In this document: positions 16,404 through 54,116 of the stretch, piece by piece
Numbering within the stretch: the first letter of the stretch is position 1
Layout of the letters: every line of letters starts with the position of its first letter
Assembly: GCF_003575965.1 (NCBI RefSeq)
Contig: NZ_QWJJ01000002.1
Coordinates: 186,001 to 250,000, forward strand
Origin: Pseudooceanicola sediminis
GTDB lineage: Bacteria; Pseudomonadota; Alphaproteobacteria; Rhodobacterales; Rhodobacteraceae
DNA length: 64,000 bases
Direction of reading: 5' to 3'
Made by a program: the position numbers and the translations under genes
The notes under the pieces: generated by a model
Told to the model about the DNA's origin: nothing
The model's database searches: none
What the model saw: only the letters and a program-made list of their open reading frames with translations

Positions 16404-16474
16404 TTGCACCGCTTGCTTACCGTCCAGATACCGTCAGGATACCGACGTCGAAAATCCACGTTATCAATGGCTTG
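16404..16474 (+). repeat. ACCG 11-bp-phased repeat, copy 1
   Basis: One of three gap-free copies of a 71-bp intergenic element. ACCG cores start at 16408, 16419, 16430 and 16441, exactly 11 bp apart. A conserved tail follows: ACGT directly after the last core and TATCAA near the end. It lies between the purU terminator and the purU stop. Confidence 0.85.
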
Positions 16475-16513
16475 GCCCGGATGCTCCCCGGGCCGCACCG
16501 ACACCCGGACAGA

Positions 16514-17398
16514 TCAGCCCATCCGCTCCGAAGCATAGCTGCCGGGGCTGGCCGGGAACACCACCGTCTTGTTGCCGTTCAGAAAGACGCGGTGATGGAT
16601 ATGCGCATGGATGGCGCGGGCCAGCACCTGGCTCTCCACGTCGCGGCCAAGGCTGACGTAGTCCGACGGGCTCTGCGCATGGGTCACGCGCACCGTGTCC
16701 TGCTCGATGATCGGTCCTTCGTCCAGGTCGGCGGTGACATAGTGCGAGGTCGCCCCGATCAGTTTCACGCCCCGCTCATAGGCCTGCTTGTAAGGGTTCG
16801 CCCCCTTGAAGCTGGGCAGGAACGAATGGTGGATGTTGATGATCCGGCCCGACATCTTCTGGCACATCTCGTCCGACAGGATCTGCATGTAGCGCGCCAG
16901 CACGATCAGCTCGGCCCCCGTGTCGCGCACAACGTCCATGATCCGCCCCTCGGCTTCGGGCTTGTTCTCCTTCGTCACCTTGATGCAGTGGAACGGAATG
17001 TCATGGTTTACCACAACCTTCTGATAATCCATGTGATTCGAGATGACGGCCACGATATCGACCGGCAGCGCACCGATCTGCCAGCGATACAGAAGATCGT
17101 TCAGGCAATGCCCGAACCGCGACACCATCAACACCACCTTCATCTTGTGGTCCGGGTCATGAATATCCCAGGTCATCTCGAAATCGTCGGCAATCGCGGC
17201 AAACCCCTTGCGCAGCTGTTCCAGGGTCGATCCGGTTTCGCTGACAAAGGTCGTGCGGGAAAAGAAATGCCCCGTCTCGGTATCGTCGAACTGGGCAAGG
17301 TCACGAATATTGCAACCCATTTCAGCCAGATAGCCGGAAATCTCGGCCACGATGCCACGCCGCGTCGCGCAGCTCACGGTCAGGATGTATTCACTCAT
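16514..17398 (-). CDS. purU: Formyltetrahydrofolate deformylase PurU
   Basis: PurU hydrolyses 10-formyl-THF to formate and THF, balancing one-carbon pools. The 294-residue protein has an N-terminal ACT domain (about 1-80, beginning LTVSCATRRGIVAEIS) and a C-terminal formyltransferase-fold domain. Active-site elements are visible: NIHHSFLPSFKGANPY near residue 215 and DEGPIIEQD near 245. It is 58 bp upstream of folD on the same strand, a logical pairing because FolD makes 10-formyl-THF. In methylotrophic or methyl-donor-degrading Rhodobacterales this pair removes excess one-carbon units as formate. Confidence 0.96.
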   Translation of the reverse strand: MSEYILTVSCATRRGIVAEISGYLAEMGCNIRDLAQFDDTETGHFFSRTTFVSETGSTLEQLRKGFAAIADDFEMTWDIHDPDHKMKVVLMVSRFGHCLNDLLYRWQIGALPVDIVAVISNHMDYQKVVVNHDIPFHCIKVTKENKPEAEGRIMDVVRDTGAELIVLARYMQILSDEMCQKMSGRIINIHHSFLPSFKGANPYKQAYERGVKLIGATSHYVTADLDEGPIIEQDTVRVTHAQSPSDYVSLGRDVESQVLARAIHAHIHHRVFLNGNKTVVFPASPGSYASERMG

Positions 17399-17455
17399 GT
17401 CGGTTTCCTATGATGCACTCAGGCGATGAAGGGGAAAGGCGTCAGGGGGCGCCCG

Positions 17456-18358
17456 TCAGGCAGTCAGCCCCTCGGGTTCGGGCAGGCCATTGGCGCGGCA
17501 GTAGGCGGTCAGCGTATTGGCCAGCAGGCAGGCGATGGTCATCGGGCCGACGCCACCGGGCACCGGCGTGATGGCCCCGGCCACGGCCGCGGCGCTGTCG
17601 TAATCGACATCCCCGACCAGCCGCGTCTTGCCTTCGCCCTTTTCCGGGGCGGGGATACGGTTGATGCCCACGTCGATCACTGTCGCGCCGGGCTTGATCC
17701 AGTCGCCGGGGATCATCTCGGGTCGGCCCACGGCAGCAACAAGAATATCGGCGCGCCGGCAGACCTCGGCCAGATCTTTTGTGCGGCTATGGGCAATCGT
17801 CACCGTGCAACTGTCGCCCAACAGCAACTGCGCCATCGGCTTGCCGACGATATTGCTGCGGCCGACGACAACGGCATTCAGCCCCGACAGATCGCCCAGG
17901 TGATCGCGCAGCATCATCAGACAGCCCAGCGGCGTACAAGGCACCATCGCCTTCTGCCCGGTGCCCAGCAGCCCGACGTTCAGCACGTGAAACCCGTCGA
18001 CATCCTTGGCCGGATCGATCGCCGCCAGCACCTTGGCCTCGTCGACATGTTTCGGCAGCGGCAGTTGCACCAGGATGCCATGCACCGCCGGATCCGCATT
18101 CAGCGCAGCCACCAGCGCCAGCAGATCCGCTTCGGGCGTCGTGTCGGCCAGCTTGTGTTCGAACGATTGCATCCCGGCCTCGACCGTCTGCAACCCCTTG
18201 TTGCGCACGTAGACTTGGCTGGCGGGGTCCTCGCCCACCAGCACAACCGCCAGCCCCGGCGTGATGCCATGGCTGTCCTTCAGGGCGCGCACCCCGTCGG
18301 CAACCTTGCCCCGCACCGTTGCGGCAAATGCTTTTCCGTCAATACGTGTCGCTGTCAT
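17456..18358 (-). CDS. folD: Bifunctional methylene-THF dehydrogenase/methenyl-THF cyclohydrolase FolD
   Basis: FolD interconverts 5,10-methylene-THF and 10-formyl-THF using NADP. The 300-residue protein has the catalytic Y-x3-K in VYVRNKG (about residues 48-54), VQLPLPKH near 97, the NADP-binding GRSNIVGKP near 167, and the C-terminal PGGVGPMT. The frame is open 40 codons upstream, but the ATG at 18358 has a GAGGG ribosome site and gives the usual length. It is transcribed ahead of purU. Confidence 0.96.
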
Positions 18359-18514
18359 GATACCCTCGGCGTCCTGTTCCGTTCGGCCTCGCCGTACCGG
18401 AAAATCCACCCAAGGGACAGATGGGCGCGCACCCAACCCCGACCTGTTTGCGATCAAGAACGGCGTATTGGTGCGCAAACGGTTCCCTTAGACGCCATTT
18501 CTTTCCGAAACGCG

Positions 18515-19708
18515 TCAGCCGTCGCCACGGCGCGACCGAAACGCCCATGTCCCGTTGCCCAGCACCGGGCCCGCGCGCTCCAGCACCATGGGCGAGCGTG
18601 AGAATGCGATGGGTGTGCGCAGCCCGGCCAGGCCTTCCGGCGCGATCTTCATGCCGCGCGCCTCGATCTGCGGTTCGGCCAGCGCCTCGGCCACCGTGTT
18701 GATCGGCCCGCCGGGCACGCCCGCAGCCTCCAGCGCGGCAATCAGATCCGCCTTGGTGCGGGCGGCAGTCCGCTCCGCGATCATCGGGCACAGCACGTCC
18801 CGGTTGCGCACCCGCGCCGGATTGGTCGCGAAATCGGGGTCTTGGGCCACGCCTTCCAGCCCCAGCATCCGGCACAGCGCGGCGAACTGTCCGTCATTTC
18901 CACAGGCCACCACGAAATGGCCATCGCTGGCAGGAAATACCTGGTACGGCACGATGCTGGCATGGGCATTGCCCACCCGCGTCGGGTTCCTGCCCCCCAG
19001 CAGATGCGCCATGCCCTGATTGCTCAGCAGGGCGACACCGGCGTCCAGCAGCGACAGGTCGACATGCTGTCCCCGGCCTGAGCGAGCACGTTCGATCAGC
19101 GCCGCCTGAATGCCGATGATGCCGTAAAGGCCGGTGACGATATCCGTGACGGCGATGCCGACCTTTTCCGGCTCATGCTCCGGCGATCCCGTCAGGTCCA
19201 TCAGCCCGCACATGCCCTGGATCAGAAAGTCGTAGCCCGGCTGGCGCGCCCGCGGCCCGGTCTGACCAAAGCCCGTGACGCTGGCATAGATCAGGCCGGG
19301 ATTGCGCGCCGACAGCGTGTCGTAATCCAGCCCGTATTTCTTCAGCCCGCCGAACTTGAAGTTCTCGATGACCACATCCGCCTCGTCGATCAGCGCGATC
19401 AGGCGCTCCAGATCCGCGGCATCGCCAAAGTTGCAGACAACGCTGGTCTTGCCCCGGTTGGCCGAATGGAAATAGGTCGCCACCGTCTCGATCCCGCCGC
19501 GGCCGTCGTCGCGTTCGATGAACGGCGGGCCCCAGCGGCGCGTGTCGTCGCCCGCCGGGCTTTCGACCTTGATCACTTCGGCGCCCAGGTCGGCCAGCGT
19601 CTGCCCGATCCACGGCCCCGCCAGCACCCGCGCCAGTTCGACCACCTTCAGCCCGGCCAGCGGGGCGGCGTCGGGTGTGGCAGGCTGTGTCGGGGCGGTG
19701 TCTTGCAT
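18515..19708 (-). CDS. CaiB/BaiF-family CoA transferase
   Basis: A type III CoA transferase of 397 residues that moves CoA between carboxylic acids through an aspartyl-CoA intermediate. Conserved elements are ELARVLAGPWIGQTLADLGAEVIKVE near residue 25 (core ADLGAEVIK), the region GYDFLIQGMCGLMDLTG with the probable catalytic Asp at about residue 155, and GGPINTVAEA near 330. Substrate cannot be assigned; formyl-CoA/oxalate, carnitine and succinyl-CoA-type members look alike. The ATG at 19708 is preferred because AGAGGA precedes it. It is 156 bp upstream of folD on the same strand. Confidence 0.86.
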   Translation of the reverse strand: MQDTAPTQPATPDAAPLAGLKVVELARVLAGPWIGQTLADLGAEVIKVESPAGDDTRRWGPPFIERDDGRGGIETVATYFHSANRGKTSVVCNFGDAADLERLIALIDEADVVIENFKFGGLKKYGLDYDTLSARNPGLIYASVTGFGQTGPRARQPGYDFLIQGMCGLMDLTGSPEHEPEKVGIAVTDIVTGLYGIIGIQAALIERARSGRGQHVDLSLLDAGVALLSNQGMAHLLGGRNPTRVGNAHASIVPYQVFPASDGHFVVACGNDGQFAALCRMLGLEGVAQDPDFATNPARVRNRDVLCPMIAERTAARTKADLIAALEAAGVPGGPINTVAEALAEPQIEARGMKIAPEGLAGLRTPIAFSRSPMVLERAGPVLGNGTWAFRSRRGDG

Positions 19709-19804
19709 CTGGCTGTCCTCTGCGGTCTCGGCCCGGCGCACGGGCATGAACGTACCTCATACCTACCGGCAGAAAACGCTGGATAGAAACAAGAAATCGT
19801 CATG

Positions 19805-19829
19805 GCTTGATGCACTCACCGCATCAAGC
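19805..19829. other. Perfect 9-bp hairpin (first of a tandem pair)
   Basis: GCTTGATGC and GCATCAAGC flank a 7-nt loop. It lies between the minus-strand monooxygenase gene and the CoA transferase gene. There is no T tract on either side. Confidence 0.6.
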
Positions 19830-19832
19830 GGT

Positions 19833-19858
19833 GGCCGGGGCAATGACCAGCCCCGGCC
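19833..19858. other. Perfect 9-bp GC hairpin (second of a tandem pair)
   Basis: GGCCGGGGC and GCCCCGGCC flank an 8-nt loop, only 3 bp from the first hairpin and 8 bp after the monooxygenase stop. It probably stabilises or ends that transcript, but there is no poly-T run. Confidence 0.6.
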
Positions 19859-19866
19859 CGGCGCCG

Positions 19867-20172
19867 TCAACTGCCGAATCCCGTCACCACAGGTTCGGAA
19901 TGGTCGACGCGCGGTGCCTGGGTGAAAAACGGCCCCGCCAGCGCGCGCCACTGCTGGAACCCGTCCGAGGTGCGAAAGCCTTCGGTATGCGCCTCCAGCG
20001 TTTCCCACAGCACATGCAGGCGGTAAAGGCCCGGTGTCTCGATCACCCGTTCCAGCGACATGCCAAGGCAGCCCCCGGCGGCCTGAAAGATCGGCACGGC
20101 CCTGCCGACGGCCTCCAGAAACTCGGCCTCCTTTGCCGGGTCGATCACCAGTTGCGCGATTTCGCGGATCAT
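19867..20172 (-). CDS. Antibiotic biosynthesis monooxygenase (ABM) domain protein
   Basis: A 101-residue single ABM-fold protein of the YgiN-like group. It opens MIREIAQLVIDP and contains an AVGRAVPIFQAAGGCLGM helix-strand unit, then YRLHVLWETLEAH, which is the typical W-E core. Such dimeric ferredoxin-like proteins act as quinol monooxygenases or have unknown roles. It is divergent from the AGCS symporter and followed by two tandem hairpins. No substrate can be given. Confidence 0.8.
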   Translation of the reverse strand: MIREIAQLVIDPAKEAEFLEAVGRAVPIFQAAGGCLGMSLERVIETPGLYRLHVLWETLEAHTEGFRTSDGFQQWRALAGPFFTQAPRVDHSEPVVTGFGS

Positions 20173-20456
20173 CTGCGGTCCCTCGTTTTGCTCCGATATG
20201 CCGCATCACGTTTTCACCTGGCGGCCCACTTTGCCAGCGGTTTCCACCTGCCCCGGCACGCGCCCTTTCGCCTCTGTTCCTTCGGTCTGCCCACGCGCAA
20301 AAATGCCACGCCCCACAGCCCTTGGTTGCACGACGGGGCGATCCGGCATTGCCACCAGCCGCCACCCGGACCACGTTCAATTCATCACAACGCGAACAAT
20401 TGATCAGGCAAAGCCAGCCGGCCCTGCCGCAAAAGATCAAAAAAGGGGGACGAACC

Positions 20457-21878
20457 TTGAGCTTTCTCGACACGATCTTCAATGCAATCAACGACCTGAC
20501 ATGGGGCTGGGCGCTGATCCCCTTCCTCGTCGTGCTGGGTGTCTTCTTTACCATCACCAGCGGCTTCGTGCAGTTCCGCTTTTTCACGCGCATGTTCCGC
20601 GTGCTGGGCAAAAGCCCCGATGCCGACCCCAACCAGATCAGCGCGCGCGAGGCGCTTCTCGTCTCGGTCGGCGGGCGCGTCGGCGGCGGCAATATCGCAG
20701 GGGTTGCCGTGGCGATCACCGCGGGCGGCCCCGGGGCGGTGTTCTGGATGTGGGCCATCGCGCTGATCGGCATGTGCTCGGCCCTGGTCGAGGCGACGCT
20801 GGCACAGACCTATAAACGGTCCGAGGAAGGCGGCGCCTATCGTGGCGGCCCGGCGCAGGCCATCGTGCATGGGCTGGGGCAGAACTATCGCTGGCTGGCC
20901 GTTGTCTATGCCGTCTGCCTGATCGCGTCCTTCGCCATCGGCTTCAACGCCTTCCAGGGCAACACCGTCGCCGGGGCCGCGCTTGACAGCCTCGCGATCC
21001 CGCGCCTCTACACCGGTGCCTTCCTGGCCATCGCCACGGGGCTGATCGTCTATGGCGGCATCCACAGGATCGCCAAGGCGGCCGATGTGATCATCCCGAT
21101 CATGGCCTTCGGCTATCTCGGCATGGCGCTGATCGTCATCCTGCTCAACCTCACCGGCCTGCCCGCCGTGATCTGGGATATCGTCGCGAATGCCTTCGGG
21201 TTCCGCGAAGCCGTCGCCGGCGGCATGGGTGCTGCCATCGCACAGGGCCTGCGTCGCGGCCTCTTCTCGAACGAGGCCGGCCTCGGCTCCGCCCCCAACG
21301 TCGCGGCCACCGCCTATGTGCGCCACCCCGTCAGCCAGGGCATCACCCAGAGCTTTTCGGTCTTCATCGACACCATAATCGTCTGCTCCAGCACGGCCTT
21401 CATCATCCTTCTGGGCGATGTCTACCAACCCGGTGCCGAAGGCATCGACGGCGTCGCGCTGACCCAGCAGAGCATGGTCAGCCACGTCGGCGCCTGGGCG
21501 CAGTACTTCCTGACCGCCGCGATCTTCCTCTTCTCGTTCTCCTCGATCATGTACAATTACTACCTCGGGGAAAACGCGCTGAACTTCATGACGAAAAGCA
21601 AGATGGCGCTGCATGTCCTGCGCCTCGCGATCATCTTCATCGTCTTTCTGGGCGCGGTCGCACCGGGGGCCACGGCGGTCTTCAACTTCTCTGATCCGAT
21701 GATGGGCATCCTCGCCGTGGTCAACCTGCTGGCCCTGATGATGATGTTCCCCATCGCCCTGCGGCTGATCAACGATTTCCGCGCCCAGCTGAACGCCGGT
21801 GTGAAACGCCCCGTCTTCGATCCAAAGGCGTTCCCCGACCTCGACACCGACCCGACCGCCTGGCCTGACGCCAAGTGA
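20457..21878 (+). CDS. AGCS-family sodium:alanine/glycine symporter
   Basis: A 473-residue inner-membrane symporter, with about 10-11 hydrophobic segments, that takes up alanine or glycine with sodium. The family signature GGRVGGGNIAGVAVA lies near residue 70 and the conserved GLFSNEAGLGSAPN near 275. The start is a TTG at 20457 with GGGGGA seven bases upstream; the long open frame before it has no membrane character. A strong terminator follows. I looked for a glycine riboswitch in the 284-bp leader and did not see one. Confidence 0.93.
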   Translation: MSFLDTIFNAINDLTWGWALIPFLVVLGVFFTITSGFVQFRFFTRMFRVLGKSPDADPNQISAREALLVSVGGRVGGGNIAGVAVAITAGGPGAVFWMWAIALIGMCSALVEATLAQTYKRSEEGGAYRGGPAQAIVHGLGQNYRWLAVVYAVCLIASFAIGFNAFQGNTVAGAALDSLAIPRLYTGAFLAIATGLIVYGGIHRIAKAADVIIPIMAFGYLGMALIVILLNLTGLPAVIWDIVANAFGFREAVAGGMGAAIAQGLRRGLFSNEAGLGSAPNVAATAYVRHPVSQGITQSFSVFIDTIIVCSSTAFIILLGDVYQPGAEGIDGVALTQQSMVSHVGAWAQYFLTAAIFLFSFSSIMYNYYLGENALNFMTKSKMALHVLRLAIIFIVFLGAVAPGATAVFNFSDPMMGILAVVNLLALMMMFPIALRLINDFRAQLNAGVKRPVFDPKAFPDLDTDPTAWPDAK

Positions 21879-21902
21879 TCACGGTCTGACACCTTGCAAG
21901 AA

Positions 21903-21926
21903 GGGCGCCCCTGCGGCGCCCTTTTT
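21903..21926 (+). terminator. Rho-independent terminator of the AGCS gene
   Basis: Perfect 7-bp stem GGGCGCC (21903-21909), loop CCTGC, GGCGCCC (21915-21921), then five T residues. It begins 25 bp after the symporter stop. Confidence 0.95.
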
Positions 21927-21993
21927 CATGCGCCCCTTGCACAGCCGCCGCCAAGGCGCGATCTTGCGCCCGAACCAAGGGGGGGCCTGCAAC

Positions 21994-23184
21994 ATGATCC
22001 ACGACTATTGCATCATCGGCGGTGGCATTGTCGGCCTTGCCACCGCCCGCGCCCTGCTGGCCCGCACCCCCGGCGCCAGCCTGATCCTGCTGGAAAAGGA
22101 AACCGCCCTCGGTCAGCACCAGACGGGCCATAATTCCGGCGTCATCCACTCCGGCATCTACTACGCCCCCGGCTCGTTCAAGGCGCGCCTTTGCCGCGAG
22201 GGGGCCGCGCGCACCAAGGAATTCTGCCAGCAGCACGCCATTGCGTACGAGGATCGCGGCAAGATGATCGTCGCCACCCGCCCGGACGAAGTGCCGCGCC
22301 TGGATGCCCTCTATGACCGCGCCGGCGAAAACGGCATCCGGGCCGAGCTGATTTCCGGAGAGGAGATCACGGCCCGCGAACCCAACGTGACCGGCCTCAA
22401 GGGGATTTTCGTCCCCGAAGCCGCCATCGTGAATTATACCGACCTGCTCCATGCCATGGCCGCCGAAATCATCGCCCAGGGCGCCGAGATCCGCTATGCC
22501 ACCCAGCCGCGCGCCATCGTAGAGGGCGGCAACAGCGTCACCGTCACGACCGACAGCGGCGTGATCGAGGCCCGCCGCCTCATCGCCTGCGCCGGTCTGC
22601 AATCGGATCGCGTGGCGAAAATGGCCGGGCTCGACCTCGATCTGCGCATCGTGCCGTTTCGCGGCGAATACTATCGCCTTGCGCCGCGCCGCAATGATGT
22701 CGTGCGCGCGATGATCTATCCGGTGCCCGAACCCGGCCTGCCATTCCTGGGCACCCACCTGACCCCGATGATCGACGGCTCGGTCACCGTGGGGCCGAAC
22801 GCCATGCTGGGTTTTGCCCGCGAAGGCTATCCGAAATTCTCCGTCAACCTGCGCGACAGCCTCGACATGGTGTCCTTTCCCGGCTTCTGGTCGTCCATCC
22901 GCCAGTTCATCAAACCGGGGCTGAACGAATTGGGCAATTCCCTGTTCAAGTCCCGCTACCTGCGCGAATGTCAGCGGTATTGCCCCGACCTGGAGCTGTC
23001 CGACCTGACCCCGATGACCTGCGGCATCCGGGCCCAGGCGGTGATGAAGGACGGCACCATGCAGAGCGATTTCGTGTTCCGCAACACCGACCGGATGCTG
23101 CATGTCTGCAACGCGCCGTCGCCCGCCGCGACCTCGGCCCTGCCCATCGGTGACATGATCGCGGATCGCGTCCTGGCCGCCTGA
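21994..23184 (+). CDS. lhgO: L-2-hydroxyglutarate oxidase/dehydrogenase
   Basis: An FAD enzyme that oxidises L-2-hydroxyglutarate to 2-oxoglutarate, passing electrons to the quinone pool or oxygen. The 396-residue protein has the N-terminal dinucleotide motif IIGGGIVGLATARALL. The GHNSGVIHSGIYY element near residue 45 is characteristic of this family within the DAO superfamily. CGIRAQAV and NAPSPAATSALPIG near the C-terminus are also typical. The ATG at 21994 is chosen because the FAD motif begins directly after it. It lies downstream of the AGCS terminator. Confidence 0.9.
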   Translation: MIHDYCIIGGGIVGLATARALLARTPGASLILLEKETALGQHQTGHNSGVIHSGIYYAPGSFKARLCREGAARTKEFCQQHAIAYEDRGKMIVATRPDEVPRLDALYDRAGENGIRAELISGEEITAREPNVTGLKGIFVPEAAIVNYTDLLHAMAAEIIAQGAEIRYATQPRAIVEGGNSVTVTTDSGVIEARRLIACAGLQSDRVAKMAGLDLDLRIVPFRGEYYRLAPRRNDVVRAMIYPVPEPGLPFLGTHLTPMIDGSVTVGPNAMLGFAREGYPKFSVNLRDSLDMVSFPGFWSSIRQFIKPGLNELGNSLFKSRYLRECQRYCPDLELSDLTPMTCGIRAQAVMKDGTMQSDFVFRNTDRMLHVCNAPSPAATSALPIGDMIADRVLAA

Positions 23185-23234
23185 GCCGGGGGGCATCGCC
23201 TGCCGGGCGCACGCCGCCTCTCGACGCCCCGCGC

Positions 23235-23301
23235 CAATGCCCCAACACTGGCCCCTACACTGGCCCCAACAATGCCCCAACACTGGCCCAACACTGGCCC
23301 G
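23235..23301. repeat. Degenerate minisatellite, unit CCCCAACACTGG
   Basis: Roughly five to six imperfect copies of a 10-12 bp unit built around CCAACACTGGCC and CCAACAATGCC. Unit length varies because runs of C expand and contract. It lies 50 bp after the L-2-hydroxyglutarate oxidase gene. Confidence 0.7.
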
Positions 23302-23404
23302 CCCGGCTGCGGTCCAAGCCGCTCCATATCGCGCCCGAACCCCTCAGACCGGCCCCGGCCATGGGCCGGCACCGCATTGCCGCCATGCCGCGACTGTCCG
23401 AAAA

Positions 23405-23475
23405 TTGCACCGTTCGGATACCGTATAGATACCGCCTTAATACCGACGTTCGGATTCAGCGTTTTCAATGACTTG
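23405..23475 (+). repeat. ACCG 11-bp-phased repeat, copy 2
   Basis: Same 71-bp element as at 16.4 kb. ACCG cores start at 23409, 23420, 23431 and 23442. It aligns without gaps to the other two copies. It ends 96 bp before the dehydrogenase start and points toward it. Confidence 0.87.
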
Positions 23476-23571
23476 ACCCCCCAAGTCGGTATCTTACCGC
23501 TATCGCCTTGACCTCCGGCCCGTCACGGGGCCAACTCCGCCCCGACCCTCCCCTGATCCGAGCGCCCCCTC

Positions 23572-24573
23572 ATGTCCGAAACCCGCCTTTCCCTCTCTGA
23601 CGCCCGCGCGCTGATCGTGCAGACCCTGTTGCGTTGCCGCACCTCTGAATCCAACGCCCATGCTGTCGCCGACGCCCTGCTTGCCGCTGAACTTGCAGGA
23701 CAATTTGGTCACGGGATGCGCCGCATTCCCGCCTATGCCGATCAGGCGCTGATCGGCAAGGTCGACGGTTTCGCGATCCCCACGGCACAGCAGACGCGGC
23801 CCGGCGCGCTCTATGTCGATGCGGCGCACGGCTTTGCCTACCCGGCCCTCGACCTCGCGCTCGACTGGCTGCCGGGGGCCGCCCGCGCCAACGGGATCGC
23901 CATCGCGGGCATCCACCGCTCGCACCATTGCGGCGTTGCCGGCGTACCGGTAGAAAAGCTTGCAGAACAAGGGATTATCGGCCTTCTGGTGGCCAATGCC
24001 CCGGCCTCCATGGCGCCTTGGGGCGGCGATCGCCCGCTGTTCGGCACCGACCCCATCGCCTTTGCCGCCCCGATCGAAGGGGCCGATCCGGTGGTGATCG
24101 ACATCTCCCTCTCCAAGGTCGCGCGGGGCAAGATCATGACCGCCGCGCAAAAGGATGAACCCATCCCCGAAGGCTGGGCGCTGGACGCCGATGGCAACCC
24201 AACGACCGATCCACACGCGGCGCTCAAGGGCAACATGCTGCCCATGGGTGACAACAAGGGGATCGCACTGGCAATCATGGTCGAGATGCTCTGCGCCGGT
24301 CTGACGAACGCGAATTACGGTTACGAAACAACGCCTTTCCTGACCTCCGAAGGCGGCCCGCCCGCCACTGGTCAGACCCTGATCGCCATCGACGCCGGGG
24401 TTTTCGGGTCTCACGCCACCGCGCGCTTTGCCGCGCTCGCCGGTGAAATCGAAGGGATGGAGGGCGCCCGCCTGCCCGGTCGCCGCCGCCAGGCGATCCG
24501 CCGGCAGATCACCGCAGACGGCATCGCCGTCGACGCCGCCCTTCTGCGCACCATCGACGCCATCGCCCGCTAG
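23572..24573 (+). CDS. Ldh/Mdh-family NAD(P)-dependent 2-hydroxyacid dehydrogenase
   Basis: A member of the malate/L-lactate dehydrogenase (Ldh_2) family, 333 residues, not related to the classical Rossmann dehydrogenases. HRSHHCGVAG near residue 115 carries the expected catalytic His; APWGGDRPLFGTDPIAFA near 145 and the GDNKGIALAIMVE near 225 are family blocks. Members act on malate, lactate, sulfolactate, ureidoglycolate or diketogulonate, and the substrate is not deducible here. Its stop overlaps that of the TauE/SafE gene in a tail-to-tail CTAG. Confidence 0.87.
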   Translation: MSETRLSLSDARALIVQTLLRCRTSESNAHAVADALLAAELAGQFGHGMRRIPAYADQALIGKVDGFAIPTAQQTRPGALYVDAAHGFAYPALDLALDWLPGAARANGIAIAGIHRSHHCGVAGVPVEKLAEQGIIGLLVANAPASMAPWGGDRPLFGTDPIAFAAPIEGADPVVIDISLSKVARGKIMTAAQKDEPIPEGWALDADGNPTTDPHAALKGNMLPMGDNKGIALAIMVEMLCAGLTNANYGYETTPFLTSEGGPPATGQTLIAIDAGVFGSHATARFAALAGEIEGMEGARLPGRRRQAIRRQITADGIAVDAALLRTIDAIAR

Positions 24574-25325: not shown

Positions 25326-25403
25326 CAGGGCCCTCACTCAACGGCAGGCCAGACTGAGGCCGGTGTGATTTTCGGTCTGCGCGGTGGCGGCTGGGCTGGG
25401 GGC

Positions 25404-26372: not shown

Positions 26373-26453
26373 GCGCGGCCTCTTTCTGCGGATCAGCCAA
26401 TGCCCTGTCGTGCCCTTCGCCAGGGAGGGAACACCGGCCCCTTATCTGCCAAC

Positions 26454-27512: not shown

Positions 27513-27526
27513 GTTCTTCGCTCCTG

Positions 27527-28198: not shown

Positions 28199-28252
28199 GA
28201 CAGCCTCCTTCTGGAATGGGGTCGCACCCCGGCGGGCGGGGCGCGCAAACGC

Positions 28253-29206: not shown

Positions 29207-29283
29207 TCGTGTCTCCGTTCAGAATGAGGTCGGACAGTGAAACAGGCCCCGGCACTACCACCGCGACCTGTCCTCAAGCCCTC

Positions 29284-43178: not shown

Positions 43179-43220
43179 CCCCAAGACTGCATCCTGGAAA
43201 CCTTTAAGCCATTGGGAAAC

Positions 43221-47359: not shown

Positions 47360-47440
47360 TCTGGCGACGCCCCCCGTGTTATCGGTTACAGTGTGAAATT
47401 CATTGTCTCGCTCGGCGCCTGGCGACAAAGGATCAGCACC

Positions 47441-47686
47441 ATGTCCCACCTTGACCAAGGCAAGACTGTCGAAAGGGCGATGCAACCGATCGCCGACCTT
47501 GATGTCCCGAAACGCCTTCGTGCCAGCGTCGACAAACAGAACCAGATCCTTCTGGATCTGGCCATCTCCCTGGTGCAGGCAGGGCTACCCGAAGATCAGG
47601 TTCGTTCGATCATAGATGCCGCCTGCGCCTCTTACCGGGACGAGTTGGTTTCGACCATTCCGGCAATAAGAGCGCAAGATGGATGA
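47441..47686 (+). CDS. Small uncharacterised protein coupled to the GAF-GGDEF gene
   Basis: I do not recognise this 81-residue protein. It is acidic to neutral and appears mostly helical: a leading helix around residues 22-46 (LRASVDKQNQILLDLAISLV) and a second around 50-72. There is no signal peptide or Cys pair. The ATG at 47441 follows AAAGGA. Its stop overlaps the next start by 8 bp, so it is translated with the diguanylate cyclase. It could be a small partner or regulator of that enzyme, but this is only inference. Confidence 0.72.
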   Translation: MSHLDQGKTVERAMQPIADLDVPKRLRASVDKQNQILLDLAISLVQAGLPEDQVRSIIDAACASYRDELVSTIPAIRAQDG

Positions 47687-48656
47687 GCGGCGGCGATTGA
47701 ACGACGAACCGGGACGACTTGCAGCCCTCAGGCGCGCCGGAATCCTCGATACCCCGCCTGAAGAGCCGTTTGAGCGGATCACCGAACTGGTGCGGTCCGT
47801 TCTGGGCGTCCCCATCGCAACTGTCAGCCTTGTCGATGAAGAACGTCAGTGGCTAAAATCCAGCGTCGGGTTGACGATTACCGAAACACCGCGCGACCTT
47901 TCGTTTTGCACACATACGATCAAGACACGTGAGCCTCTGATCGTGCCTGATGCAAGGCTGGATACGCGCTTTCGCGACTTTCCCTACGTGATCGGAGAGC
48001 CCGGTGTGCGCAGTTACCTCGGCCTGCCGCTTGAAACCCCCGACGGATACAACCTGGGCGCGCTCTGCGCGATCGACACCGTGCCGCGTGATTTCACGAC
48101 GACCGAAGCTGCCATCATGAAAAACTTTTCCAGGCTCGTCATGAACGAGCTGGAATTGCGCCAGATCGCCATGAGCGACTCCCTGACCGGTGCGATGACG
48201 CGAAGGGGCTGGATGGAGGCGGTTGAGACCCAGATTGCCCGCTGCCGCAGAAACGGTCAGGCATCGTCGATCGTGTTGCTGGATGTCGACCATTTCAAGC
48301 GCATAAACGATGGCCATGGACATGCTGCGGGCGACCGGATCCTGCGCGGCGTCGCGCAGGCCTGTTTTGCCAACCTGCGCGACGCCGACCTTTTCGCCCG
48401 CATCGGCGGCGAAGAATTTGCCATATTTCTGCCCATGACCGATGCGGCGCACGCCGCGGCATTGGCCGAACGTCTGCGCGAACAGATCTCTCTGACGCCC
48501 TACGATCTGGACGGGGCGGCGGTGCGGATCACCGCCAGTTTTGGCATCACCCAGGTCCGGGCAGATGTCGAAGGGGTCGAGGCCGGACTGAAGATCGCCG
48601 ATGCCATGTTGTATCGTGCCAAGCTGGATGGTCGCAATGTGTGTCGCGTCGCCTGA
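47679..48656 (+). CDS. GAF-domain diguanylate cyclase
   Basis: A soluble 325-residue c-di-GMP synthase. The N-terminal GAF sensor (about 20-155) has the common GILDTPPEE start and FCTHTI element. The GGDEF domain (about 165-325) has an intact active site RIGGEEFAIF near residue 246. RDAD five residues before the GGEEF fits the inhibitory I-site RxxD, implying product feedback. It overlaps the small ORF and follows treY by 320 bp, just before a sugar ABC importer. It may link small-molecule or redox signals to biofilm or motility. Confidence 0.93.
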   Translation: MDERRRLNDEPGRLAALRRAGILDTPPEEPFERITELVRSVLGVPIATVSLVDEERQWLKSSVGLTITETPRDLSFCTHTIKTREPLIVPDARLDTRFRDFPYVIGEPGVRSYLGLPLETPDGYNLGALCAIDTVPRDFTTTEAAIMKNFSRLVMNELELRQIAMSDSLTGAMTRRGWMEAVETQIARCRRNGQASSIVLLDVDHFKRINDGHGHAAGDRILRGVAQACFANLRDADLFARIGGEEFAIFLPMTDAAHAAALAERLREQISLTPYDLDGAAVRITASFGITQVRADVEGVEAGLKIADAMLYRAKLDGRNVCRVA

Positions 48657-49090
48657 CGTGCACGGCGCCCAATTCTTGCGCCATCTGCAAATCGCGGCAC
48701 CGTCCGGGACTGGGGAAATGACAAGCTGTTCCGCGACCCGCCTTTGACGCGATATTGCCCCGATGCGGGTCAAAGGGTACGGTTCCGACACAGATTTGAG
48801 TGCTTTTCGCAGGCTCTGATCGCAGCGCCGCGCGGCGGAATGGCGGGCAAGCGGATGAATTGGTTTTGAATTCCGCCCGCCAAGAGGTTGACTTGTCGTT
48901 CGCCAAGCCCACCAATATAGCCATTGGCGGCGATTGAACCCGCCTGAAAATCCGGGATAAGAAGCACCCAAGTGCCCGCCCCGCCTGAATATTGCAGTTT
49001 GAACCGGACCCATCTTTCCATTTTTCGGACCGGGACACGCCATTTTTTCATGGCACTGCCTTAGATAGCAAAGACGATCGGGAGGATCAC
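48657..49090. promoter_or_regulatory. Gene-free leader of the sugar ABC operon with inverted repeats
   Basis: A 434-bp gap with no supportable ORF. It has two separated perfect 8-bp inverted repeats: CCTTTGAC (48741-48748) with GTCAAAGG (48769-48776), and TGGCGGGC (48841-48848) with GCCCGCCA (48875-48882). A third, GCCAT-N6-ATGGC-like, lies at 49039-49054. One may be a regulator site and the first could end the GGDEF transcript. GGAGG before 49091 is the ribosome site of the binding-protein gene. Confidence 0.45.
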
Positions 49091-50452
49091 ATGACGTCAC
49101 TTAAACCCCGCGGCGCTCGCGCGACCGCGCTTCTTGGCACCGCTCTCGCCATCTGCCTGGGTCAGGCCGTTGCCGCACAGGATCTGCGCCTCTGGACAAC
49201 CGAAGAGCAGCCCGAACGGCTGGCCCGACAGGAGCAGTTGGCCGCCGATTTCGAAGAGGCCACCGGTATTTCCGTCGCGGTCATTCCGGTCACGGAAAGC
49301 GATCTGGGCACGCGCGCGACAGCTGCCTTTGCCGCCGGCGACCTGCCGGACGTAATTTACCATACCCTGCAATACGCGCTGCCCTGGGCAGAGGCCGGAT
49401 TGCTGGACACGGCCGCCGCGACAGAGGTGGTCGAGGATCTGGGCATGGACACCTTTGCCCCCGGTGCGCTGGACATGGCGGCATTTGATGGTGGCATCGC
49501 CTCGGTCCCGGTTGATGGCTGGACGCAGATGATCCTGTACCGCAAGGATCTTTTCGAGGAAAAAGGGCTGGAGCCGCCCACGACCTACGACGCCGTGACC
49601 AAGGCTGTAGAGGCGCTGAACAACCCCCCAGAGATGTACGGATTTGTTGCCGCGACCAAGGTCGACGACAACTTCATGAGCCAGGTTCTGGAACATGTCT
49701 TCCTTGCCAACGGCGTCAGCCCGGTCGGCCCGGATGGCTTTCAGCCGCTGGATGAGAGGAAGACGGTAGAGGTGCTGAATTTCTACAAGACCATCGCGGA
49801 TGCCTCGCCTCCGGGTGATCTGTTCTGGAAGCAATCGCGCGAAGTCTATTTTGCCGGTGATGCCGCGATGATCATCTGGTCGCCGTTCATCCTGGACGAA
49901 CTTGCTGGCCTGCGCGACAGCGCCCCGCCGACCCTCACCGACGACCCCACGTCGGCCGAACTCGCGTCAAAGACAGGTATCGTCACCAACTTTGCAGGGC
50001 CGTCCAACCCCGACGGCGCGGCCTGGGCCGAAATGAACATGTTCGGTATCACGGCTGACGCCGAGGTCGACGACGCCATTGATTTCGTCAAGTTCTCGAT
50101 GAACGAGGGCTACATGAACACGCTGGCCATTGCGCCTGAAGGCAAGTTTCCGATCCGGCGCGGAACCGAAGACGAACCGACCAAGTTCGCGGATGGTTGG
50201 GCGAAACTTGATGTTGGCGTCGATCGCAAGGCACCCTTGGGTGATCTGTACGCGGCTGACATGATTGACGAAATTGTCGGCGGACTGGACGTGGCACAGC
50301 GCTGGGGTGTCGAGGACGGGCAGCTCGCCCTCGCGTCTCAGATGGTGAACACCCAGATCATCAACCGCTATGTGCGCGAATTCATCGACGGCCGCCGCTC
50401 CGCGGAAGAAACCGTCGCCGTGATGAATGAAGAGTTGGCCAAGGTCGAATAA
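49091..50452 (+). CDS. Sugar ABC transporter substrate-binding protein
   Basis: A periplasmic solute-binding protein of cluster B (MalE/UgpB-like), 453 residues. A Sec signal peptide covers about 1-29 (AICLGQAVAAQ). RLWTTEEQPERL and GDLPDVIYHTLQYALPWAE are typical early elements; GPSNPDGAAWAEMNMFGI near 300 lies in the hinge/ligand region. GGAGG lies six bases before the ATG. It is followed by two permeases and a MalK/UgpC-type ATPase. The substrate is likely a sugar or polyol; the adjacent alpha-glucan genes hint at an alpha-glucoside but do not prove it. Confidence 0.9.
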   Translation: MTSLKPRGARATALLGTALAICLGQAVAAQDLRLWTTEEQPERLARQEQLAADFEEATGISVAVIPVTESDLGTRATAAFAAGDLPDVIYHTLQYALPWAEAGLLDTAAATEVVEDLGMDTFAPGALDMAAFDGGIASVPVDGWTQMILYRKDLFEEKGLEPPTTYDAVTKAVEALNNPPEMYGFVAATKVDDNFMSQVLEHVFLANGVSPVGPDGFQPLDERKTVEVLNFYKTIADASPPGDLFWKQSREVYFAGDAAMIIWSPFILDELAGLRDSAPPTLTDDPTSAELASKTGIVTNFAGPSNPDGAAWAEMNMFGITADAEVDDAIDFVKFSMNEGYMNTLAIAPEGKFPIRRGTEDEPTKFADGWAKLDVGVDRKAPLGDLYAADMIDEIVGGLDVAQRWGVEDGQLALASQMVNTQIINRYVREFIDGRRSAEETVAVMNEELAKVE

Positions 50453-50480
50453 TGGCAATCTGCACCATCGGGGGCGTGGC

Positions 50481-51731
50481 ATGAGCACCGCCCCCTCCGT
50501 CCCCCCCAGGCCGCCGCGCGGTCGTGGGCCGCTGGCCCGCCGAGAGGCGCGGCTGGCATGGCAATTGCTGGCGCCGACCCTGGCGGCGGTGTCACTGGTC
50601 GTGATCCTGCCGCTATTGGCCATTTTCTGGATCTCGTTCAAACCGGTCACCCTGGCAGACCTGCGCCCTCCTGCGCCTGTGGTCAGGGAAAGCCTGCGTG
50701 GCTCGGGCGAGGATATGCGGGTCGAATACAGCCTGCGCAACTCCTCGCAGGATCAGACCGTGTCGGGTGTCGTGCTGACGGACACCTTGCCCGATGTGCT
50801 GTCATTTCGGGGCTCGCCCGAAGCGCCCTGCCAAGCGGATGGCAAGGTTCTGACCTGCAATTTCGGTGATATCGAAGGTGGGTTCCGCACCCGCGTGGCA
50901 GTTCCCGTAACTGGCCAGGGTGACGACGACGCGCTGGAGGCCGCTGCCGAAGGGTCGGAACCAACTGTTACCGGCACCGCCCCCAACGTCCTGACGAACC
51001 TGACGTTCACCTGGCAGAACTTCGCCCGGATCTTTGATGGCAGCGAATTCTGGAACGTCCTGGGCGTGACGCTGTTCTATACCTTTTTCGGCACCGCCGG
51101 CGCGCTGGTTGTCGGACTGTTCGCGGCCCTGCTGCTGGATCGGTCCTTCAAGGGACAGGGCATTCTGCGCGGGCTTTACCTGTTTCCCTATGTCGCCCCG
51201 GTCATTGCCGTCGCCTTCACCTGGGTGACGCTGTTCGATCCGTTTTCGGGTTCGGCAAATGCGCTGCTGATCCAGATGGGCGTCAGCCAGTCCGCGATCA
51301 ACTTTTTCGGGGAACGCCCCCTTGCGCTGGTCATGGTGACCCTGTTCGAGATCTGGCGCTATTTCCCTCTTTCCTTCCTGTTCATCCTGGCCAGAATGCA
51401 GTCGATCGACACCGATATGTACGAAGCTGCCGATATGGACGGGGCTTCGCCGTTTCAGAAATTCCGCTTTCTGTCATTGCCGCAACTGCTTGGGATCCTT
51501 TCGGTTCTCTTCCTCTTGCGGTTCATCTGGACCTTCAACAAGTTCGACGACATCTTTCTGCTGACCGGCGGTAATGCCGGGACGCGGGTGTTGACGGTGA
51601 ATGTCTATGAACAGGCGTTCGATCTGGCCAACATCGGCGCGGGCGCGGCGGTGGCCGTGGTGATTTTCCTGTGTCTGACGCTGTTCAGTATCTTCTTTTT
51701 CCGCGTCATGAGCCGGGAGGAAGGCCTGTGA
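50481..51731 (+). CDS. Sugar ABC permease (MalF-type) with periplasmic DUF11-like insert
   Basis: A 416-residue inner-membrane permease. TM1 spans about 28-53. A periplasmic insert of about 115 residues (60-175) separates it from TM2 (from about 193). The insert reads like a beta-sandwich of the DUF11/conserved repeat type: VEYSLRNSS, SGVVLTDTLPDVLSF, then CQADGKVLTCNFGDI with a Cys pair at 117 and 126. The rest is normal, including the EAA loop YEAADMDGASPFQKF near 315. The start at 50481 follows GGGGG. It pairs with the next permease. Confidence 0.9.
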   Translation: MSTAPSVPPRPPRGRGPLARREARLAWQLLAPTLAAVSLVVILPLLAIFWISFKPVTLADLRPPAPVVRESLRGSGEDMRVEYSLRNSSQDQTVSGVVLTDTLPDVLSFRGSPEAPCQADGKVLTCNFGDIEGGFRTRVAVPVTGQGDDDALEAAAEGSEPTVTGTAPNVLTNLTFTWQNFARIFDGSEFWNVLGVTLFYTFFGTAGALVVGLFAALLLDRSFKGQGILRGLYLFPYVAPVIAVAFTWVTLFDPFSGSANALLIQMGVSQSAINFFGERPLALVMVTLFEIWRYFPLSFLFILARMQSIDTDMYEAADMDGASPFQKFRFLSLPQLLGILSVLFLLRFIWTFNKFDDIFLLTGGNAGTRVLTVNVYEQAFDLANIGAGAAVAVVIFLCLTLFSIFFFRVMSREEGL

Positions 51732-51759
51732 CCCCTGCCCGCCAAGTTCGGAGCCAACC

Positions 51760-52965
51760 ATGAAGAGCCTGAGAACCGGATACATCACCGGCGCAGCCCT
51801 GGGCGTGCTCTGGTCCTTCACCATGGCAGTGACCGTGGCCGTCGCGATGAGCTTTGCCACCGGCGACGGCTTTCGTCCCGGCACTCTGGGCATTGTCCTG
51901 TCGGGCCTGCTGTGCGGCGCCCTGTCCGCGCGCGTGGGTCGCTGGGTCGCACCGGTGGCCGGCGTCGTGATCTATGCCGTGCTGACCGCTGTCGGCCTGC
52001 CCCCTGTCGTCGCCGAGGGAGGGATGCTGCATGTCGTGTTGAGCGCGGTAATCGGCGGCGCTGTTGTCGGGCTGGGCATGTGGGCGATCAGTGGCGACCT
52101 GCCGCCCGGTGCGCTGACCCGGCATGAGTTCGAGGCGTCGATCATCCGGTTTCTGACCGGGTTCGGCTATGTCTTCTTCACCGCCATCGTGGTGATCCCC
52201 TTCTACGTCATGGTGATGACCAGCCTGAAAAGCCAGCAGGCGCTGTTGCAGAATCCGCTCGATTTCAGCCTGGACCTGTCGCGCGGATGGGACCTGCTCC
52301 GCAGCTACCGGGAATTGCTGACCGACTACAACTTTGGTCAATACCTCTGGACCAGCTTCTTTATCTCGGTCCTTACGGTGTTGATCACCTTGGCTTTTTC
52401 GATCCCAGGTGCCTATGCCGTCGCACGCCTGCGGTTTCGTGGCCGCGCCGCGATGTCCCGGTCGGTGCTGTTGATCTACATGGTGCCGATGATCGTTCTG
52501 GCGCTGCCGATCTACATCGGCTTTTCGATGGCCGGGCTGCGCAATACCGTGTTCGGGATCATCGTGATCTATCCGGTCACCACCATCCCGGTCGCGCTGT
52601 ACATGCTTCAGGGCTATTTTCGCGGGTTGCCCGCCGAGGTCGAGGAGGCGGGGCTGATGGACGGCCTGTCGCGCCTTGCCGTGATCTGGAAGATCACGTT
52701 GCCGCTGTCCCTGCCCGCCTTGGCGTCCGTGTCGCTCTATGTCTTCATGATTGCATGGAACGAATTCCTGTTGGCTTTCATGCTGTTGGACGACCCTTCA
52801 AAGTTTACTCTGACCCGGGGGATCGCCAGCCTGAACTCTTCGGAGATACCGCGGCAGCACCTGATGGCGGGGGCCGTGATCGCGACCGTCCCGATCATGG
52901 GGCTGTTCCTGGGGCTGGAAAGATTCATGACACGCGGGCTTACCGCGGGATCTGTGAAAGGATGA
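51760..52965 (+). CDS. Sugar ABC permease (MalG-type) with extra N-terminal membrane domain
   Basis: A 401-residue permease, about 120 longer than MalG-type proteins (about 280). Residues 1-112 contain four additional hydrophobic segments (about 8-32, 42-62, 65-85, 88-110). Then a normal MalG-like core starts at about 130, beginning FVFF-like VFFTAIVVIPFYVMVMTSLK, with EAA loop EVEEAGLMDGLSRLAVIWK near 288. The extra domain is of unknown function. It lies 28 bp after the first permease and 4 bp before the ATPase gene. Confidence 0.9.
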   Translation: MKSLRTGYITGAALGVLWSFTMAVTVAVAMSFATGDGFRPGTLGIVLSGLLCGALSARVGRWVAPVAGVVIYAVLTAVGLPPVVAEGGMLHVVLSAVIGGAVVGLGMWAISGDLPPGALTRHEFEASIIRFLTGFGYVFFTAIVVIPFYVMVMTSLKSQQALLQNPLDFSLDLSRGWDLLRSYRELLTDYNFGQYLWTSFFISVLTVLITLAFSIPGAYAVARLRFRGRAAMSRSVLLIYMVPMIVLALPIYIGFSMAGLRNTVFGIIVIYPVTTIPVALYMLQGYFRGLPAEVEEAGLMDGLSRLAVIWKITLPLSLPALASVSLYVFMIAWNEFLLAFMLLDDPSKFTLTRGIASLNSSEIPRQHLMAGAVIATVPIMGLFLGLERFMTRGLTAGSVKG

Positions 52966-52969
52966 GGCG

Positions 52970-54016
52970 ATGAGCGCTATCACATTGAAAGCAGTCGAAA
53001 AATGGTACGGCCCGGTCCAGGTGATCAAGGGCATCGACCTTGAGGTGCACCCCGGCGAATTCGTCGTGTTCGTCGGCCCGTCGGGTTGCGGCAAATCCAC
53101 TCTTCTGCGGATGATCGGCGGGCTGGAGGAGATCAGCCGGGGGCAGTTGCTGATCGACGGGCGCGACGCCACCAGCGAGGCCCCGAGCCAGCGCGGGTTA
53201 TCGATGGTGTTCCAGAGCTATGCGCTTTATCCGCACATGTCCGTGGCCGACAACATGGGCTTCAGTCTGAAAACCGCCGGAGCGCCGAAGTCGGAGATCG
53301 ATGCCAAGGTCGGCACCGCCGCCGAGGTGCTGAAGCTGGAGGAGCTGCTGGACCGGCGGCCCAAGGACCTGTCCGGCGGGCAACGGCAGCGGGTGGCCAT
53401 CGGGCGATCCATCGTGCGCGATCCGACGGCGTTTTTGTTCGATGAACCGCTGTCTAACCTGGACGCCGCGCTGCGCGTCGAGATGCGGTATGAAATTGCC
53501 AAGCTGCACCAACGCCTTGAAAAAGCGATGATTTACGTGACCCATGACCAGGTCGAAGCGATGACGCTGGCAGATCGGATCGTGGTTCTGGACGCCGGGC
53601 GTATCGCGCAGGTCGGCACCCCGCGCGAGCTGTACGAGCGGCCGGCGAACCTGTTCGTGGCGCAGTTCATCGGGTCGCCCAAGATGAACGTATTGCCCTG
53701 CACCACCGTGGAAGGCAGCTGGAAGATCGAAGGCGGACGGGGCGATATCGGGGCCCCGGAGGGGGCCGTGCACCTTGGAATCCGGCCCGAACATATCGAA
53801 GTGCTGCCCGCTGGCCAGGGGGATTGCGACGTACGTCTGGATGTCGTGGAATACCTTGGCGCGGATACCTTTCTGGTCTGTGACGGCGGGCCGATGGGCC
53901 GGCTGACGGTGCGGGTCATCGGCAATACCGTGCTGCGCCCCGGCGCCGATTGCGGGCTGCGGTTCGACCGGACGCGGATGAGCTTTTTCGACGAGACCGG
54001 CAAGACGTTGCGCTGA
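52970..54016 (+). CDS. Sugar ABC transporter ATPase (MalK/UgpC family)
   Basis: The 348-residue ATPase that drives the importer. Walker A is GPSGCGKST (about 38-46), Q-loop VFQSYALYPHM, signature LSGGQRQRVAIGRSIV (about 134), Walker B FLFDEPLSNLDA (about 158) and the switch His in YVTHDQVEA. A C-terminal TOBE regulatory domain includes LGIRPEHI near 265. The gene lies 4 bp after the second permease, closing the operon. A copy of the ACCG repeat follows. Confidence 0.95.
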   Translation: MSAITLKAVEKWYGPVQVIKGIDLEVHPGEFVVFVGPSGCGKSTLLRMIGGLEEISRGQLLIDGRDATSEAPSQRGLSMVFQSYALYPHMSVADNMGFSLKTAGAPKSEIDAKVGTAAEVLKLEELLDRRPKDLSGGQRQRVAIGRSIVRDPTAFLFDEPLSNLDAALRVEMRYEIAKLHQRLEKAMIYVTHDQVEAMTLADRIVVLDAGRIAQVGTPRELYERPANLFVAQFIGSPKMNVLPCTTVEGSWKIEGGRGDIGAPEGAVHLGIRPEHIEVLPAGQGDCDVRLDVVEYLGADTFLVCDGGPMGRLTVRVIGNTVLRPGADCGLRFDRTRMSFFDETGKTLR

Positions 54017-54045
54017 GCCGGGGCGCAACGTCGGTCTATCCGGGC

Positions 54046-54116
54046 TAAACCCTTGATATCGCCGGATTCGAACGTCGGTATTTGGGCGGTATCTATACGG
54101 TATCTGAACGGTGTTT
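54046..54116 (-). repeat. ACCG 11-bp-phased repeat, copy 3
   Basis: Third copy of the 71-bp element, on the minus strand. Its cores appear on the plus strand as CGGT at 54076, 54087, 54098 and 54109, again 11 bp apart. It aligns without gaps to copies 1 and 2, closest to copy 2. It ends 17 bp before the GST start codon and lies 29 bp after the ATPase stop. Confidence 0.87.

Follow-up and report, generated by a model that had tools for sequence, protein, structure and literature searches.

Dispersed arrays of 11-bp iterons in Pseudooceanicola sediminis as probable chromosome-wide sites of a BrnA-type ribbon-helix-helix protein

Results

Three array copies in the window

The 64,000-nucleotide stretch of the Pseudooceanicola sediminis genome analysed here (the window) carries three copies of an intergenic element in which four 11-bp direct repeats (iterons) are followed by a tail, and these copies belong to a genome-wide family of arrays that are very likely the sites of an orphan BrnA-type ribbon-helix-helix (RHH) protein. 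The iterons of array 1 occupy positions 16406..16449 on the plus strand, with ACCG at 16408, 16419, 16430 and 16441, and its tail extends over 16450..16474. Array 2 lies on the same strand, with the iterons at 23407..23450 and the tail at 23451..23475, and array 3 is located on the minus strand, with the iterons at 54071..54114 and the tail at 54046..54070. As the initial annotation had reported, the three copies align without gaps, show the 11, 11, 11 phasing of ACCG in each case and are all situated outside the called genes, the nearest gene boundaries being 15875/16514, 23184/23572 and 54016/54134. The copies are identical to each other at 52, 46 and 56 of 71 positions, whereas elsewhere in the window the best match to any copy amounts to 33–38 of 71. 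Pairs of TACCG up to 40 bp apart occur in the window at distances of 11 (six pairs), 22 (three), 8 (one) and 38 (two) and at no others. The pattern ATACCG-N5-ATACCGACGT with up to three mismatches has eight matches in the window against 0.25 expected, five of which fall within the three copies, and none of 100 shuffles reached eight.

Array 2 has an orthologous array at the same place (L419) in a sister genome (G016; complete chromosome, coordinates as Pseudooceanicola spongiae NZ_CP045201), and an array adjoins the orthologous gene also in L096; array 3 likewise has an orthologue in the sister genome (L420), with its orientation kept. The tails of arrays 1 and 3 contain the IHF-like sequences TATCAA-TGGC-TTG and TATCAA-GGGT-TTA, respectively. 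When folded on both strands, none of the three copies was unusually stable (z-scores −1.1 to 1.3), and a reading as a hairpin or structured RNA was rejected for this reason.

A genome-wide family with an 11-bp register

The existence of the family and its register were computed directly, and so were the placement and conservation of the arrays and the statistical link to the protein. The initial annotation had allowed for a chance or local duplication, with no further copies or with the register lost; a search of the genome and of related Rhodobacterales instead revealed a genome-wide family, which is present in other Rhodobacterales as well. In the whole genome of the window (G000, 4.44 Mb), ATACCG-N5-ATACCGACGT with up to three mismatches has 257 matches compared to 19 for the reversed control, where matches overlap inside one array, so that these and all later pattern counts are of matches and not of arrays. 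A four-iteron profile (R1), built from 80 arrays and assuming the 11-bp register, detected at least 148 arrays at E ≤ 0.001 in G000 and at least 132 strong arrays at E ≤ 4e-6 in the sister chromosome, per-genome R1 counts being lower bounds based on the best 150 candidates scored (the best 30 in the survey of 198 genomes described below). From the sister genome 110 of the 132 arrays were read, of which L406 was dropped as no array was found in it by a simple score, leaving 109, and 60 of 65 planned further stretches of G000 were used.

In a profile of 95 exact G000 copies, with duplicates removed, the element stands out sharply over about 68 bp and comprises the four iterons and then the tail, which ends about 35 bp past the start of the last iteron. 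The register is kept in these copies, where the first two iterons constitute a free test of it, since the selecting pattern fixes the last two; it is also kept in the sister arrays, although these were found with the register-assuming profile and are likewise not independent. In 48 of the 95 copies (class A) the tail has an IHF-like site at a fixed place (score of at least 7 of 9), and a fifth ACCGAC occurs at +44 in 9 and at +54 to +58 in 22 of the 48. Measured from the last iteron, the fifth ACCGAC is placed at +44 or +54 to +58 in class A and at +68/69 or +80/81 in class B copies, that is, in steps of about one helical turn. The sister profile keeps the iterons and the phased A/T blocks and lacks the IHF-like site. 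The conserved tail of the earlier description is real in the genome of the window, yet weaker and different in the sister. The initial annotation saw in this tail an argument for something beyond a simple operator; it is IHF-like in the first genome but not in the profile of the second. IHF as a key partner was set aside on account of the missing match.

The exact pattern was found in at least 111 stretches of genome records, and the iteron in other Rhodobacterales has the sequence ATACCGACGY, 67 of 111 arrays being of the four-iteron form. Among 80 listed records, 78 are titled as Rhodobacterales taxa and two only as Alphaproteobacteria. A fair share of the 111 arrays (L121-L231) have GTTAAC within about 20–40 bp before and 10–30 bp after them, and GATTCG or GAGTCG is found at +30 to +50 in 27 places; both contain GANTC, the CcrM site.

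Spread by plasmids was set aside after PLSDB returned no blastn match to one array copy and no tblastn match to the protein. Spread by phages was also set aside: five viral contigs match a two-iteron pattern, and a four-iteron array was seen by eye in one of them. The latter, L343 (IMGVR_UViG_3300037791_000022, filed as viral), has a four-iteron ATACCGACG array and may represent host sequence bordering a prophage. A different arrangement is present in L058 (G000:C27:16648-18377), where three copies with two to three iterons each follow head to tail in 80-bp steps and run past the contig end. Elements resembling L058 are located near the ends of C1, C3, C6 and C10, and long tandem forms of the array may break the G000 assembly.

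Conservation of position and orientation

By comparison of flanks with the arrays masked, 57 of the 109 sister arrays were matched among 97 arrays of G000, with the same orientation in all 57 pairs and with both flanks matching in 53. A further best pair, L333/L066, is inverted, and L066 has a higher-scoring partner of the same orientation in L393. The 97 arrays are at most two thirds of the G000 set, for which reason alone the other 52 sister arrays may lack a partner; that 57 pairs were found with such a subset indicates that a large share of the arrays is common to both genomes. A comparison of 16 orthologous sites gave differences in 0–2 of 16 for the ACCG cores and in about 10 of 16 for nearby intergenic bases; it favours conserved cores, as both arrays were selected by motif. 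The flanks of orthologous arrays are nearly saturated with changes.

Beyond this pair of genomes, at 14 array places of G000 an array adjoins the orthologous gene in another species on the same side and strand, six of them in records of other genera (L013, L016, L027, L033, L052 and L079). Another nine flank matches differ in side or strand; most are of low identity or involve a distant neighbour, and L025/L196 is clearly flipped. The small mobile repeat that had been proposed as one explanation does not agree with the persistence of positions and orientations in the sister species and, at several places, across genera; judged by sequence comparison, the arrays are probably not a recently moving repeat, as all 57 orthologous pairs retain both place and orientation. 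Spacer identity amounts to 0.63 and 0.62 within the two species, 0.54 between orthologues and 0.50 between non-orthologues, which corresponds to a species-specific consensus, and the tails retain a memory of the locus, with an identity of 0.488 between orthologues compared to 0.384 between non-orthologues.

In a survey of 23 genomes of the genus, four have 78 or more arrays (148, 135, 88 and 78, as lower bounds), G017 has 23 and G019 has five. The array in the gltD gap is kept in five of the 23 genomes, including G019 with its five copies in all. No other iteron sequences were seen by eye in two orthologous gaps of genomes devoid of arrays.

Placement and spacing of the arrays

The arrays lie outside genes in 107 of 111 cases in other species and in 103 of 109 in the sister genome, and they are common at the 3′ ends of genes. 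Gaps between divergent genes are under-used both in other species (4/86 arrays versus 111/339 background gaps) and in the sister genome (12/98 versus 24/78, P=0.004), whereas convergent gaps are favoured in the latter (29/98 versus 12/78, P=0.03). The genes at the conserved places, named by sequence inspection only, have an unrelated housekeeping look (gltD, leuD, regA, radC and others). Terminator-like hairpins are equally frequent at sister gene ends that face arrays (24/114) and at other ends (16/66), and the corresponding figures for G000 are 22/105 and 13/42 (P=0.21); the replacement of terminators by arrays was set aside as neither genome has a significant difference.

The sister chromosome has one array in about 33 kb on average, and the spacing of its 132 arrays is more even than by chance, with a coefficient of variation (CV) of 0.74 versus 0.99, or 0.71 versus 0.96 (P=1e-4) when the exact length and a 1-kb exclusion are used, and 14 gaps of less than 10 kb separate them compared to 32 expected. 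An incomplete set of 22 arrays on contig 1 of G075 has a CV of 0.73, to which no significance is attached. The two halves of the sister chromosome do not differ in strand polarity (P=0.23; the origin was not located), and polarity along replichores was set aside accordingly. A run of minus-strand arrays is found early in this chromosome (21/26 before 920 kb).

A BrnA-type protein that accompanies the arrays

The loss of whole array sets suggests that a trans-acting factor is involved. A 128-aa protein recurs as a neighbour of arrays across genera (L027, L215 and L225), and in the genome of the window its gene is located at G000:C6:146104-146487 (L427). All six proteins that were scanned match Pfam PF14384 (BrnA_antitoxin) above the curated cut-off (E 4e-13 to 1e-9). 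We take PF14384 to be an RHH family, the fold assignment being based on this match and on the known properties of BrnA. Neither a BrnT toxin nor a ParM-type motor gene was found among ten neighbouring proteins scanned with Pfam at the six loci, on one side only in L429 and L430, and the search for BrnT did not extend to the rest of the genomes. A cold-shock protein gene adjoins the BrnA-like gene in three genomes (L027, L403 and L430), a possible synteny anchor.

Within the genus, the protein is present at E ≤ 1e-5 in four of 23 genomes, which are exactly those with 78 or more arrays (Fisher 1.1e-4, uncorrected for kinship). In a survey of 198 genomes of the family, where the arrays were subject to stricter filters than in the genus survey, the protein is found at E ≤ 1e-8 in 55 genomes and ten or more arrays of the window motif in eight. 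At E ≤ 1e-28, the protein is present in five of these eight compared to 7 of the 190 others.

The six loci examined in detail come from four genomes of the genus and from two records of other genera; all six have an array on the opposite strand upstream of the BrnA-like gene. One locus from each of 30 genera was then tested upstream of the gene for periods from 7 to 20, these being the 30 best among the 55 genomes with the protein. A period of 11 bp is strictly best in 25 loci; a score of 22 or more of 33 matches is attained by this period in 24 loci and by any other in one. The array is usually placed about 90–150 bp before the gene start, and its motif is lineage-specific, with CGGTAT, CGGCAT, TCGGAC, GTATGG, TGCAC and others being found. 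The only locus where another period scores 22 or more is L427, in which a 16-bp tandem repeat of the CAGACCCACAGACCGA type, situated between the array and the BrnA-like gene, outscores 11 bp. GTTAAC, TTAACC or GTTAAG is also present before the gene in 22 of the 30 loci.

The upstream motifs allowed predictions for other places in the same genomes. The TCGGAC motif came from G211 and G208, where it was derived solely from the arrays that precede the gene; the expectation was set before the genomes were counted, and 52 and 82 dispersed matches, respectively, were found as predicted. G075 was not foreseen and has 51 matches, its own upstream array being found later, and G106 has four; six other genomes tested have none, and reversed controls give 0–2 per genome. 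Of the 23 distinct arrays read among its results, 15 are of the four-iteron form and 21 are intergenic. Four period-11 windows with GTATGG, the motif of G089 itself, are the only periodic non-coding ones of periods 8–14 in 400 kb of that genome.

The motif also varies together with one residue of the protein, the X of the sequence T-L-X-L-D, which would be the outward residue of the RHH β-strand. Strands of RHH proteins in general enter the DNA major groove. In 35 loci, the 30 of the upstream survey and five more, X is Tyr in all nine loci of the CGGTAT type and in none of the 26 others, the nine having been labelled by hand with some iterons departing from the motif (CGGCAT in G001 and CGGTAC in G165). 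Trp is found with CGGCAT in one locus, Ala with TGCAC in three, and Leu or Met with TCGGAC in three, and in the close pairs G087/G107 and G106/G182 both the residues and the motifs differ. On a protein tree of the 35 rows, Tyr needs three changes on the best tree and three to four in bootstraps. Such a pattern looks as direct recognition would, with contributions of other residues, and the code is imperfect.

Discussion

The link between the arrays and the BrnA-type protein is well supported, and the three elements of the window are probably members of a chromosome-wide set of anchor arrays for one autoregulated RHH protein that works like SegB or CdbA. We infer physical binding and its stoichiometry: with four iterons, one per helical turn, an array would offer room for four adjacent RHH dimers along the same face of the DNA, and the outward residue of the β-strand in T-L-X-L-D would recognise those bases of the iteron that follow CGG. 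The array before its own gene would enable the protein to regulate its own level. The remaining arrays, the majority of which occupy gaps at gene ends and avoid double promoters, would most likely function as evenly spread anchors for the nucleoid or for segregation and not as operators of the neighbouring genes. The even spacing, the choice of gaps, the unrelated neighbours and the lack of a clear exchange with terminators fit chromosome anchor points, and chromosome organisation as the main role of the arrays is suggested here tentatively, with a chance slightly short of even. A structural repeat, one of the alternatives in the initial annotation, comes closest to this picture, although a dedicated protein has to be added.

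Several observations weigh against such a model. The AlphaFold model of the protein is poor (predicted local distance difference test score 47.5), with helices only and no β-strand, and does not support the fold, and no match among solved structures was found up to E 10. Some genomes have arrays and lack the protein, namely G017 and G019 with 23 and five arrays at E ≤ 1e-5, and G095, G216 and G120 with 16, 15 and 11 arrays at E ≤ 1e-8. No R1 match at E ≤ 0.001 was found in 14 of the 23 genus genomes, which implies that the array system is dispensable. The upstream period of 11 bp is not strictly best in five of the 30 loci (no array seen in G224, G043 and G121, a tie in G184, and the higher-scoring 16-bp repeat in G000). 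The GTATGG density in G089, four in 400 kb, is a third of that predicted, and the prediction of a dispersed family failed in G170, which has an ATGCAC array at the gene and one three-iteron array with two mismatches in 360 kb. As for the recognition code, Arg occurs with many motifs in 13 loci, Leu and Met are each found once with a motif other than TCGGAC, the sister proteins of G185 (Arg) and G089 (Ser) both accompany GTATGG, and the strongly supported branches of the tree, taken alone, are compatible with a single origin of Tyr. The evenness of spacing was tested on one complete chromosome, that of the sister genome. Lastly, the arrays L051, L033 and L023 stand directly before start codons in the manner of operators. 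These three G000 arrays have ACAGG-type spacers a few bases from the start codon, unlike the 3′-end majority, and precede genes that by inspection encode an ABC transporter permease, leuD and a hydrolase, respectively; they are possible true operators.

Several known systems come close to the arrays. SegB, an archaeal RHH segregation protein of the Sulfolobales, compacts and bridges DNA and works with the ATPase SegA, and its sites are found before its own operon and, in tens, scattered over the chromosome. The SegB sites are 13-bp imperfect palindromes located in more than 80% of cases inside genes, whereas the present arrays are four 11-bp direct repeats and mostly intergenic, with no SegA-type partner known. 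CdbA of Myxococcus xanthus is likewise an RHH protein with a direct-repeat consensus and more than 500 scattered sites, is needed for nucleoid organisation and has little effect on transcription. It is described as moderately specific, with about 65% of its peaks in genes, and as binding c-di-GMP; in contrast, the arrays are strict, number only about 130 and lie for the most part between genes. Scattering of sites over the chromosome, as in SegB and CdbA, is observed for the arrays, which the protein would occupy. In the parC system of plasmid R1, the RHH protein ParR needs at least two 11-bp repeats, and the DNA wraps into a helix. The tandem repeats upstream of its own operon have their counterpart in the 11-bp period that is best in 25 of the 30 loci, and by analogy a ParR-like side-by-side binding at 11 bp would fit the arrays; parC is, however, a plasmid centromere with a ParM motor, whereas the arrays are dispersed over the chromosome and no motor is encoded among the ten neighbours. 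The protein resembles the antitoxin of BrnTA in its PF14384 match, which exceeds the curated cut-off in each of the six proteins scanned, and differs in having no BrnT among the ten neighbours scanned at the six loci. A chromosome-wide array set for BrnA was not met in the literature search. RIB/RIP elements are found at 3′ ends with IHF sites and, like REPs, are palindromic. Together with REP/BIME and REPIN-RAYT they share with the arrays a dispersed intergenic position, while the arrays are direct repeats without hairpins and with an RHH partner. The IHF-like site is present in 48 of the 95 G000 copies and absent from the sister profile. REPIN populations are reported to persist for millions of years.

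The main rival explanation is that the arrays are operators of a global RHH transcription factor, which would repress or block transcription at many genes, by binding at promoters or as a roadblock for RNA polymerase at gene ends. The array before the gene of the protein, the arrays that abut start codons (L051, L033 and L023) and the frequency of arrays at 3′ ends would all agree with this. Even spacing is nevertheless not expected of a regulon, divergent promoter gaps are under-used, although 12 of 98 sister arrays sit there, the neighbours at conserved sites look unrelated by inspection of their sequences, and the arrays do not clearly replace terminators in either G016 or G000, and we regard a global regulator as unlikely. 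The 11-bp spacing of tandem half-sites also suits response regulators of the OmpR/PhoB type, as initially suggested. That proposal survives in so far as the register behaves as tandem protein sites, one per helical turn; a response regulator is less likely because the evidence points to a BrnA-type RHH protein, whose gene co-occurs with the arrays, carries one and changes together with the motif, and we consider it highly improbable.

Persistent selfish repeats, similar to REPINs with their RAYT transposase, would have spread once and then been inherited, with the BrnA-like protein as host or helper. More than 100 dispersed copies, patchy within the genus and co-present with one gene, would suit such an origin, as would the three copies that end contig C27 at 80-bp intervals and the spacers, whose likeness is greater within a species (0.63 and 0.62) than between orthologues (0.54), a difference to be expected of homogenisation by copying. 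We nonetheless find it improbable: all 57 orthologous pairs agree in position and orientation, 14 places are kept in other species, six of them in other genera (with nine other flank matches in disagreement), the tails keep a memory of their locus (0.488 versus 0.384), no hairpin structure is present in the three copies, the protein matches an antitoxin family, and the motifs differ together with it. The same match, to BrnA_antitoxin in all six proteins scanned, could point to a toxin–antitoxin relic with the dispersed arrays as titrating decoys. This reading is also very unlikely, given that no BrnT was found among the ten neighbours scanned (the rest of the genomes not being searched), that the arrays are fixed in place while their flanks diverge, and that a decoy would have no clear gain from this.

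Returning to the chromosome-anchor model, a broader form of it is conceivable but more doubtful, in which the Roseobacteraceae would possess a lineage-specific anchoring system made of an orphan BrnA-type RHH protein and some 20–150 evenly spread four-iteron arrays inherited in place, with the recognition code repeatedly rewritten together with the β-strand, so that related species have mutually exclusive sets of addresses. Apart from the precedents discussed above, a literature search covering the motif, BrnA operators, repeats and nucleoid proteins of this group and 11-bp repeats met no such system. If the model is true, it would add a bacterial, chromosome-wide and sequence-specific RHH site system, in an abundant marine group, to the few that are known, and it would warn that the antitoxin label may not hold for genes filed under BrnA. 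With a small protein and short, strict sites, binding, regulation and chromosome folding can all be tested directly. The arrays would then also constitute a natural experiment in which a DNA-binding protein and more than 100 of its sites have changed their code together.

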